64,000 bases of DNA from Alphaproteobacteria bacterium (lineage in GTDB: Bacteria > Pseudomonadota > Alphaproteobacteria > Micropepsales > Micropepsaceae): the NCBI GenBank assembly GCA_021324545.1, contig JAJPIX010000020.1, forward strand, positions 1 to 64,000, in the 5' to 3' direction. A program made the translations under genes and the position numbers. Below the pieces are notes generated by a model. That model saw only the letters and a program-made list of their open reading frames with translations. It did not search any database and was not told the DNA's origin. Shown in pieces: positions 32,236-45,645 of the stretch; the first letter of the stretch is position 1, and the number at the start of each line of letters is the position of its first letter.

Positions 32236-33114
32236 CTATTTCCCGTTCAGCAGATCCTTGAGCGTGGTGCCCAGCGCCGCCGGATTGGGCGACACGCGAA
32301 TGCCCGCGGCTTTCATCGCCTCGATCTTGGACTGCGCGCCGCCCTTGCCGCCGGAAATGATGGCGCCGGCATGGCCCATGCGCCGGCCGGGTGGAGCGGT
32401 GACGCCGGCGATGAATCCCACCATCGGCTTCTTCACTTTGGAATGGCGGATGAAATCGGCCGCATCTTCTTCGGCGCTGCCGCCGATCTCGCCGATCATG
32501 ACGAGCGCTTTCGTTTCGGGATCGGCCAGGAACATCTCCAGCACGTCGATGAATTCGGTACCCTTCACCGGATCGCCGCCGATGCCCACGCAGGTTGTCT
32601 GGCCAAGCCCCACCGCGGTTGTCTGCGCCACCGCTTCATAGGTCAGCGTGCCCGAACGCGAAACGATGCCTACGATGCCACGCTTGTGGATGTGGCCCGG
32701 CATGATGCCGATCTTGCATTCGCCGGGCGTGATGACGCCGGGGCAGTTGGGCCCGATCAGGCGCGATCCGGAACCCGACAGCGCGCGCTTCACCCGCACC
32801 ATGTCGAGCACGGGAATCCCTTCGGTGATGCAGACGATGAGCGGAATTTCCGCATCGATCGCTTCCAGGATCGCGTCCGCCGCGAACGGCGGCGGCACAT
32901 AGATCACGCTCGCATCGCAATCTGTTTTCGCTTTCGCTTCGCGCACCGTGTCGAAGACGGGCAGTCCGAGATGTGTCGTGCCGCCTTTGCCGGGCGACGT
33001 GCCGCCGACCATTTTCGTGCCGTAAGCGATGGCCTGTTCGGAATGAAACGTGCCCTGGTTGCCGGTGAAGCCCTGGCAGATGACGCGCGTGTTCTTGTCG
33101 ACGAGGATGGACAT
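32236..33114 (-). CDS. sucD: Succinyl-CoA synthetase, alpha subunit
   Basis: Protein of 292 residues from ATG 33114 ([21 protein letters not shown]). CoA-binding N-terminal domain with [18 protein letters not shown]; phosphohistidine loop in [24 protein letters not shown]/CoA ligase parts [20 protein letters not shown] and [10 protein letters not shown]. It forms succinate and nucleotide triphosphate with SucC. Its first ten codons are repeated at 33740-33769 next to sucC, showing that an insertion split the original sucC-sucD junction; the reading frame is intact. No clear Shine-Dalgarno precedes the ATG; the DUF559 stop codon is 10 nt upstream, so reinitiation is likely. Confidence 0.95.
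33085..33114 (-). repeat. 30-bp direct repeat, copy in sucD (codons 1-10)
   Basis: Encodes [10 protein letters not shown] of functional sucD. Matches 33740-33769 at 29 of 30 bases; the one difference (33100 versus 33755) is a synonymous third-base change in Val5. The match stops exactly at the ATG on one side and after codon 10 on the other. Confidence 0.95.
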
Positions 33115-33124
33115 GGCGGTGAGG

Positions 33125-33553
33125 TTATCGCATTGCGTTTTCATTTCCTCCCCCTGAAAGGGGGAGGGCGCGAGCCGAAGGCGAGCGGGTGGGGGTCTCG
33201 TGCAAGGCGCGGGAAATCCCGTCCAGAACGCTCTCCAGGCTCTGCTTCATCTGGTAATTCGAAAAACGCAACACGCGGATGTCTTTGCGCTTCAGAAATT
33301 CGTCGCGCGCGCGATCATGGGCAAGGCCTTTTGCAAACCCGTGCTGTTCGCCATCCAGTTCGACAGCAAGCTTTGCCACCGGGCAATAGAAATCGAGAAT
33401 ATATGGCCCGACCGGATGCTGGCGGCGAAACGAATAGCCGTTCATTTTCGACCCGCAGAGATGGAACCAGAGTCTCTGCTCCGGCCGCGTCGCATTCTTG
33501 CGCAAGGTCCGCGCGCGGGCGGTTTTGAGCTTGGTGCGGTCAAAGCGCGTCAC
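33125..33553 (-). CDS. DUF559 (Vsr/PD-(D/E)xK-like) endonuclease-domain protein
   Basis: Protein of 142 residues if started at GTG 33553, which has AGGGAGGG eight bases upstream, provided by a palindromic repeat. The DUF559 core is clear: [51 protein letters not shown], with acidic and Gln residues in the Vsr-like PD-(D/E)xK pattern, then [17 protein letters not shown]. The frame is open further upstream through the repeats to the duplicated sucD ATG at 33769, so a 214-residue product starting [10 protein letters not shown] could also be made. Family role is unproven; relatives are seen next to palindromic repeats. It separates sucC from sucD. Confidence 0.8.
33144..33167 (+). repeat. 24-bp terminal inverted repeat, left
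   Basis: Starts TTTCCTCCCCC, then TGAAA, then GGGGGAGG, so it is itself a hairpin. It is the exact reverse complement of 33711-33734. The similarity continues more weakly inward as a G-rich tract ending GCGGGTGGGGGTC. Confidence 0.9.
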
Positions 33554-33560
33554 CGGAATT

Positions 33561-33602
33561 CCCTCCCTTGAAAAGGGAAGGCCGGATCGCCGCTGGGAAT
33601 TT
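33561..33602 (+). repeat. Palindromic repeat unit, copy 1 (imperfect)
   Basis: Begins CCCTCCCTTGAAAAGGGAAGG followed by CCGGATCGCC, matching the first half of the next unit, but the second hairpin is lost. Read on the minus strand, its GGGAGGG serves as ribosome site for the DUF559 GTG start. Confidence 0.8.
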
Positions 33603-33654
33603 CCCTCCCTTGAAAAGGGAGGGTCGGATCGCCAAAGGGCGATCCGGGGAGGGA
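33603..33654 (+). repeat. Palindromic repeat unit, copy 2 (complete)
   Basis: Two-hairpin unit: CCCTCCC TTGAAAA GGGAGGG, spacer TC, then GGATCGCC-AAAG-GGCGATCC, then GGGGAGGG. The same architecture with a different second hairpin appears at 45594-45645, so this is a dispersed family. Confidence 0.85.
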
Positions 33655-33710
33655 TCAAATCGCTCGTTCTGACCCCCACCCGCGCCCCCGCGGCAAGCGC
33701 GGGGCCGCGT

Positions 33711-33734
33711 CCTCCCCCTTTCAGGGGGAGGAAA
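33711..33734 (-). repeat. 24-bp terminal inverted repeat, right
   Basis: Exact reverse complement of 33144-33167. It lies 5 bp from the duplicated sucD segment, while the left copy is 29 bp from sucD, so the element ends are asymmetric relative to the duplication. Confidence 0.9.
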
Positions 33735-33739
33735 AGTGA

Positions 33740-33769
33740 GCGCGTGTTCTTGTCAACGAGGATGGACAT
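33740..33769 (-). repeat. 30-bp direct repeat, relic of the sucD start next to sucC
   Basis: Encodes [10 protein letters not shown] in the frame that continues into the DUF559 element. Its ATG overlaps the sucC stop (TAATG at 33771-33767). Presumed to be the original sucD start left behind by the insertion, or a copy made during it. Confidence 0.95.
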
Positions 33770-34938
33770 TATTTGCCAACTCGCACCGCTTTCACGATCT
33801 TCTGTGCGGCGTCGTTCAAATCGTTGGCGGAGATGATGGCAAGGCCCGACTTCGCCAATATCTCCTTGCCCTTTTCCACATTCGTGCCTTCCAGCCGCAC
33901 CACCAGCGGCACCTTCAGCGACAATTCATGCGCCGCCGCCACAATGCCTTCGGCGATGATGTCGCATTTCATGATGCCGCCGAAGATGTTGACCAGAATC
34001 CCCTTCACGTTGGGGTCCGACACGATGATCTTGAACGCGGCGGTCACCTTCTCGCGGCTCGCGCCGCCGCCGACATCGAGAAAGTTGGCCGGCTCTTCGC
34101 CATAGAGCTTGATGATGTCCATGGTGGCCATGGCCAGACCCGCGCCGTTCACCATGCAGCCGATGGAACCGTCGAGCTTCACGTAATTCAGGTCGTATTC
34201 GGCCGCTTCGCGTTCCTTGGGGTCCTCCTCGCCGGGATCGCGCAGCTCCATCACGTCGGGATGGCGGAAGAGCGCGTTGTCGTCGAAATTGATCTTGGCG
34301 TCGAGGCAGATGAGGGCGCCGTCCTTCGTCACCACCAGCGGATTGATTTCCAGCAGGCTCATGTCCTTGGCGATGAAGGCGTCATAGAGCGATTTGATCA
34401 GCCTGCCGCATTGCTTGGCCTGATCGCCCTTCAGCTTCAGTGCGGTTGCGATGTCGAGTCCCACATAGGGCGAATAGCCGGCGGCCGGATCCACCGTAAA
34501 GGTCTGAATCTTCTCCGGCGCCGTTTTCGCAACCTCTTCGATATCCATGCCCCCTTCGGTGGACGCGATGAAAGCGATGCGCGAACGGCCGCGGTCCACC
34601 AGCGCGGAAAGATAAAGCTCGCGCGCAATGCTTGAGCCATCTTCTATATAGAGCCGCTTCACCACGCGGCCATGCGGCCCGGTCTGGTGTGTGACAAGCG
34701 TCATGCCCAGCATGCGTCCGGCTTCCCGCTTCACCTCTTCGACGGATTTCACCACCTTCACGCCGCCGCCCTTGCCGCGTCCGCCGGCGTGGATCTGCGC
34801 CTTCACAACCCAGATGGGTCCGCCCAGCACTTCAGCCGCCTTGACGGCTTCATCGATCGTGAATGCGGGCATCCCTTTGGGAACAGGCGCGCCGAACTGG
34901 CGCAGAATCGCTTTTGCCTGATATTCGTGAATGTTCAT
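33769..34938 (-). CDS. sucC: Succinyl-CoA synthetase, beta subunit
   Basis: ATP-grasp protein of 389 residues starting [26 protein letters not shown]. Visible motifs include [18 protein letters not shown] for nucleotide binding, [30 protein letters not shown] for metal and nucleotide, and the C-terminal [19 protein letters not shown] and [17 protein letters not shown] that contact SucD. First gene of the leftward TCA operon. Its TAA overlaps a copy of the sucD ATG. Confidence 0.96.
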
Positions 34939-45593: not shown

Positions 45594-45645
45594 CCCTCCC
45601 CTTGGGGGAGGGTCGAAATTTGCTTCGGCAAATTTCGGGGAGGGG
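45594..45645 (+). repeat. Two-hairpin palindromic repeat, dispersed copy
   Basis: CCCTCCCC TT GGGGGAGGG, spacer T, then CGAAATTTGC-TTCG-GCAAATTTCG (10-bp stem, UUCG loop), then GGGAGGGG. Same layout as 33603-33654 in the DUF559 element, with a different second hairpin. Confidence 0.85.

Follow-up and report, generated by a model that had tools for sequence, protein, structure and literature searches.

The element at 33144-33734 raises the question of whether the small nuclease gene that it holds and the palindromes that enclose this gene form one system, and whether the encoded protein is the agent that spreads the palindromes, as the initial annotation had proposed by analogy with REP palindromes. 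The window, by which we mean the whole 64,000-nucleotide stretch of DNA analysed, is one of the contigs of a 2.7-Mb draft genome that is 97% complete. The element lies between sucC and sucD, and its ORF on the minus strand matches DUF559 (PF04480, E = 9.6e-30), the family to which it had initially been assigned. The features are as follows.

32236-33114, minus strand: sucD, the host gene downstream of the insertion
33085-33114, minus strand: beginning of sucD, which forms the right-hand copy of a direct repeat of 30 nt
33125-33553, minus strand: DUF559 (PF04480) nuclease gene, about 142 amino acids (Pfam E = 9.6e-30; domain at 33203-33526)
33144-33198, plus strand: outer unit on the 3' side of the gene, with hairpin 1 (33147-33167), variable hairpin 2 and inner G-box GCGGGTGGGGGTC
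about 33559-33581, no strand: additional imperfect hairpin CCCTCCCTTGAAAAGGGAAGG
about 33603-33653, plus strand: second complete unit, with CCCTCCC..GGGAGGG hairpin 1, TC, hairpin 2 and GGGGAGGG
33671-33734, minus strand: outer unit on the 5' side of the gene, with inner box GACCCCCACCCGC, hairpin 2 and hairpin 1 (33711-33731)
33740-33769, minus strand: left-hand copy of this direct repeat (30 nt), a duplicated sucD start in in-frame fusion to the DUF559 ORF
33769-34938, minus strand: sucC, the host gene upstream of the insertion
45594-45645, plus strand: solitary complete unit with a layout like that of the element's units

In the window, hairpin 1 reads CCTCCCCCTGAAAGGGGGAGG and the inner G-box GCGGGTGGGGGTC. 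The perfect 24-bp inverted repeat of the initial annotation is in place (TTTCCTCCCCCTGAAAGGGGGAGG at 33144-33167, its reverse complement at 33711-33734), as are the two palindromic units described inside it (the imperfect hairpin and the complete unit, both upstream of the DUF559 gene) and the lone unit at 45594-45645. Absent from that description were the location between sucC and sucD with its 30-nt duplication (33085-33114 and 33740-33769), and the construction of each element end from two parts, with the outer hairpin followed inward by the variable hairpin 2 and the inner G-box, the two outer units being mutually inverted. It also lacked the likeness of the region 33603-33740, which comprises the units at 33603-33653 and 33671-33734, to gene-less unit pairs elsewhere in the genome, such as L006. 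The DUF559 gene probably starts at the GTG at 33553, with a purine-rich palindrome arm just upstream.

The pattern CCTCCCN{2,20}GGGAGG occurs at 42 sites in the 2.7-Mb genome, versus 4 for the reversed control pattern, and palindromic units accompany every one of the genome's four PF04480 loci; the palindromes of the window therefore exceed chance. One of these four loci (L002) carries another unit type, CCCTCTCCC..GGGAGAGGG followed by GGGTGAGGG. The commonest hairpin of the source genome (CCTCCCCCGTTTACGGGGGAGG; L013, L012, L005) is found around none of its four DUF559 genes; this hairpin type was seen flanking DUF559 genes only in sister species (L040, L071).

The AlphaFold model of the window's DUF559 protein (pLDDT 87) shows a nuclease fold. 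Its matches, given as VIA Z scores, were the gonococcal DUF559 structure 3hrl (16.2), I-Bth0305I (3r3p, 13.1) and Vsr (1cw0, 10.5), and hmmsearch gave a match to 3r3p at 6.7e-5. The protein thus models as a Vsr/I-Bth0305I-type PD-(D/E)XK fold of the EDxHD homing-endonuclease type. Among the residues invariant in 40 DUF559 sequences are R18, E25, W29, D54, E65, D67, H71, D80, R83 and R96, and of these E25, D54, H71 and D80 are candidates for metal-dependent DNA cleavage. An identification as DpdF by PADLOC was set aside, the weak match being judged to reflect the shared nuclease fold. An in-frame start lies 0-10 nt after a G-box at 40 of 54 loci, a generous count in which GTG and TTG were allowed, suggesting that the unit doubles as a ribosome-binding site.

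Insertions between host genes and gene-less unit pairs

We compared the sucC-sucD junction in 41 genomes of the genus. In many relatives the two genes overlap as TAATG or are separated by a 2-3 nt gap, with no palindrome; others carry an unrelated ORF there, and in the genome with the closest SucD (G016, 92%) the junction is empty. Because relatives have an empty junction, the window element is an insertion. Of the 41 genomes, G022 alone also has a DUF559 element, just upstream of sucD (L109); the encoded protein is more closely related to the window's DUF559 protein than any other, at 58% identity.

The 30-nt duplication of the sucD start that flanks the window element matches at 29 of 30 positions (97%). 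Direct repeats of about 30 nt flank two of 51 elements (L003, 29/30; L056, 26/29), with scores of 56 and 43 versus a background maximum of 42, and the repeat at L056, like that at L003, is the start of the downstream gene. A constant short target duplication was found neither by inspection of the ends of about 50 elements nor in the direct-repeat scan of the 51. The ~30-nt duplications may point to breaks with a wide stagger or to synthesis during repair.

Units also occur as pairs that lack the gene. In G049 we read 16 palindrome sites. In most of them, a long end with hairpin 2 and a short end with a 3-nt linker form an inverted pair, separated by roughly 10-40 nt of spacer. Both ends match those of the DUF559 element of the same genome (L021): the long end typically at about 90% over 60-70 nt, and the short end, in the better copies, at 41-46 of 42-48 nt. 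The gene-less pairs of G045 (L193-L196) have their hairpins inside and their G-boxes outside, around a conserved ~68-nt spacer; since this orientation is opposite to that in G049, the pair layout is not universal. Similar pairs are present in the source genome (L006, L013, L017). When the flanks of L017, the pair between acd and ech, were joined, they matched 11 relatives with a clean empty site, where the two host genes lie directly against each other or overlap, free of palindromes. G372 carries a pair of a different type at this junction, an independent insertion. From the 11 empty sites and the G372 pair, it follows that gene-less pairs are mobile, or at least repeatedly gained.

On plasmids of two Azospirillum species, a DUF559 element lies at one common site beside prfA (L120 and L170); the flanks are about 95% identical, yet the two elements between them differ strongly, as though one version had been exchanged for another. 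This fits an alternative in which the repeats pre-exist and spread by other means. DUF559 would then cut the units, and repair would copy its gene into them with the units acting as homology arms, so that the gene follows the repeats. The diverged elements between nearly identical flanks are as expected from gene replacement, and the closest characterised relative of the protein, I-Bth0305I, is a homing endonuclease. However, homing offers no account of how the repeats spread, and the odds ratio of 92 reported below would need a separate cause. Furthermore, the insertion between sucC and sucD broke an ancestral junction that is palindrome-free in many relatives. We regard homing into palindromes as unlikely.

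Linkage of DUF559 genes with palindromes

For the linkage analysis we used 61 genomes from the genus and its class, with 53 canonical DUF559 loci that have complete flanks. Long inverted palindromes (score at least 36) flank 49 of the 53, with a median inverted-repeat score of 55, whereas of 360 control positions within these loci none reached 36 (maximum 31). As an internal control we used a divergent DUF559 clade resident in the genus, with weak E-values and without palindromic flanks: long inverted flanks were present at 0 of its 17 genes. Two more weak matches with long flanks (L004, L080) are truncated canonical copies. The divergent clade of the genus (L043-L048, L078-L079, L081-L088), which is without palindromes, is apparently vertically inherited. 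All of the evidence is comparative, taken from a single representative genome per species, with several loci on short contigs.

Among the top matches across the phylum, a pyrimidine/purine hairpin lies within 260 bp of all 29 DUF559 genes, compared with 1 of 27 sucD controls. Hairpins stand on both sides at 12 of the 29, and many loci outside the class are one-sided; the hairpin density is 4.7 per kb near these genes versus 0.22 per kb farther off. The DUF559 loci of Deinococcus and of Picosynechococcus plasmids look similar by eye. The related cyanobacterial plasmids of Picosynechococcus PCC 7002 and PCC 7003 (L127 and L171) do not carry equally many palindromic units around DUF559, as would result if single units had been gained or lost.

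The type of unit follows the protein. Across 50 loci, the more two proteins differ, the more their units tend to differ as well (Mantel r = 0.33, p = 0.0005; r = 0.31 when only loci of different genomes are compared). In 81 of 99 mutually non-independent comparisons, a unit was nearer to that of the best foreign relative of its protein than to that of a more distant paralog at home. This co-variation bears on the possibility that DUF559 is a caretaker, which would resolve hairpins or triplexes formed by the repeats and so maintain rather than spread them, palindrome-rich genomes simply needing it. The repair fold resembles that of Vsr, triplex motifs have been linked to instability in E. coli (PMC4666352), and VsrA of Caulobacter, a DUF559 protein, triggers SOS (PMC12907096). 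Nevertheless, a caretaker would need neither repeats at its flanks, nor co-variation paralog by paralog within one genome, nor the up to ten copies of DUF559 that a genome may carry, and we consider this explanation quite improbable.

We next turn to the association at the level of genomes, using 299 genomes of the window's own phylum (to judge by gene content, probably Pseudomonadota, with the window in class Alphaproteobacteria) that are at least 90% complete and defining a strong DUF559 match as E < 1e-20. Sites of the pattern CCTCNCCCN{2,12}GGGNGAGG were counted over control, and genomes with at least 10 were called palindrome-rich; one pattern was used per search, so that other unit types escape these counts. 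The median number of sites over control was 39 in genomes with a strong match (n = 83), 1 in those with a weak match (n = 29) and 0 in those with none (n = 187). The initial annotation had named, as the outcome that would speak against its idea, palindromes equally common in genomes without DUF559. This was not seen: 69 of 83 strong-DUF559 genomes are palindrome-rich versus 11 of 216 others (odds ratio 92, Fisher p = 1.8e-41). The association also holds within families, where shuffling of DUF559 status gave 53 on average and never more than 61, compared with the 69 observed (p = 5e-5). Since the gene nearly always lies between two copies of the repeat, and since genomes rich in the repeat are with few exceptions those that carry the gene, the two are probably one mobile element.

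In seven strong-DUF559 genomes the pattern is rare or absent. Conversely, of 17 palindrome-bearing genomes without a strong match, three contain decayed DUF559 pieces beside palindromes: G153 (a stop and a frameshift), and G040 and G308 (C-terminal ends), G040 belonging to the set of relatives and not to the phylum set. In most of the 17 genomes examined, no clear DUF559 remnant was found. Palindrome-rich genomes without an intact gene thus look, in part, like cases of gene loss.

DUF559 could also be a passenger, a cargo or addiction-type gene between palindromes that are moved by RAYT or by host repair, and a RAYT-like Y1_Tnp is indeed present in some of these genomes. Its distribution runs opposite to that of the palindromes: Y1_Tnp occurs in 33 of 80 palindrome-rich versus 122 of 219 palindrome-poor genomes (odds ratio 0.56). 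PF01797 (Y1_Tnp) has no match in the source genome, and Y1_Tnp was not found in G013, G022, G027, G033, G034, G045 and G049, despite their many palindromes. On these counts RAYT was rejected as the moving agent, and the passenger explanation is very unlikely. Finally, an artefact of chance palindromes in GC-rich DNA or of shared ancestry is refuted by the controls already given: the reversed pattern has matches in some GC-rich genomes but is near zero in most, the within-family test still gives p = 5e-5, and 0 of 360 control flanks reached the threshold.

A putative mobile-element system

We propose that DUF559 and the two-part palindromes constitute one mobile-element system, REP-like in layout and unrelated to RAYT, with DUF559 as its dedicated nuclease; we put the probability of this reading at roughly 70%. 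The initial suggestion, in which DUF559 proteins are what spreads these palindromes, is supported by the genome-level association, by the linkage, by the co-variation and by gene-less derivatives that share the ends of the elements; that the protein itself does the cutting and moving is an inference from them.

Recognition, cleavage, the chemistry of copying and self-regulation might then proceed as follows. The autonomous form would be a unit, the DUF559 gene and an inverted unit, about 400-600 bp in all. The nuclease would recognise units of its own type and cut or nick in or beside them. Through repair or as an excised intermediate, single units, unit pairs or complete elements would then reach new sites, mostly where neighbouring genes overlap or leave a short gap. 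Gene-less pairs would depend on the autonomous form in the way that REPINs depend on RAYT genes. The inner G-box may serve as the ribosome-binding site of the DUF559 gene, and locking it in a hairpin or triplex could make the element self-limiting.

The same repeats have been named BoxC, PIT elements and intrastrand triplex motifs (TM), known from E. coli and from more than 260 further genomes (PMC4666352). The 2015 survey reported no mobility gene near them and counted 23 in MG1655 (PMC4666352). The DUF559 units share their order, CCCTCTCCC - loop - GGGAGAGGG - 3 nt - GGGTGAGGG, that is, a pyrimidine block, a purine block and a second purine block. Units of the CTCTCCC type (L020, L002, the G049 pairs) match the published TMECO pattern, and the CCTCCCC types are variants of it. 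The difference is that BoxC has been described as a structural motif only, whereas the present units are tied to DUF559 and include forms in which a hairpin replaces the 3-nt linker.

In E. coli K-12, the DUF559 gene is ycjD (L128:1908-2261), and BoxC number 9 of MG1655 (1,351,204-1,351,239) lies about 170 bp downstream of it. The gene is polymorphic, missing from about 2,000 of 5,426 E. coli genomes, and the whole sapF-ycjD-fabI region is present in about 3,333 of the 5,426. DSM 30083 and UTI89 have a tetR/RND efflux block upstream of fabI in place of ycjD, so that in both strains examined the site is not cleanly empty. The BoxC site between tauD and hemB varies in length in E. coli, with no clean insertion footprint. 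As neither site has a clean empty state, E. coli was rejected as a source of clean insertions.

We think it slightly better than an even bet that DUF559 proteins, YcjD included, are the mobility nucleases of BoxC/PIT/triplex repeats throughout bacteria, and thus define a second, RAYT-independent class of REP-like selfish elements, with a Vsr-type nuclease working on two-part ends that form hairpins or triplexes, and with paralogs tuned to their units. A search of open-access PMC papers gave nothing that ties DUF559 or YcjD to these repeats, and to judge by that literature the system seems to be undescribed. Short C-rich/G-rich palindromes of this type are among the commonest small repeats of bacteria, E. 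coli included. If DUF559 moves them, a widespread protein of unknown function and an equally widespread repeat family of unknown origin would explain each other, and a second class of enzyme, unrelated to RAYT, would be building REP-like repeat populations. The idea would be testable in E. coli K-12 through ycjD and BoxC.

Comparison with known systems

With DDE insertion sequences and MITEs, the DUF559 elements share terminal inverted repeats and short non-autonomous copies. They differ in that their sole gene is not a DDE transposase, and in place of a constant short target-site duplication, only L003 and L056 have repeats, of about 30 nt.

The likeness to Vsr and I-Bth0305I lies in the protein: the model has the Vsr-type PD-(D/E)XK fold (Z 10.5 and 13.1), with the conserved acidic and histidine residues E25, D54, H71 and D80. 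The difference lies in the setting, since DUF559 is a free-standing gene of about 110-150 amino acids, flanked by palindromes at many unrelated sites. The diverged elements at the one Azospirillum site fit replacement, as in homing; the other elements occupy many non-allelic sites.

The closest likeness in organisation is to REP/REPIN-RAYT systems. One small gene lies between inverted palindromes, gene-less inverted pairs are scattered between genes, the unit sequence is matched to the gene, and repeats persist where the gene has been lost. The REP tag GTAG/GTRG was sought by eye: GTAG is absent from the hairpin feet, and GTGG, which fits GTRG, occurs inside some G-boxes. The gene next to the repeats encodes PF04480 and not PF01797, and because of this enzyme class the DUF559 elements are, by their parts, not members of the REP-RAYT-REPIN group. 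RAYT is a Y1 HUH tyrosine transposase, whereas the DUF559 enzyme is Vsr-like and of the PD-(D/E)XK type, and its repeats are pyrimidine/purine units of C-box and G-box, which the abundance of Y1_Tnp does not follow.
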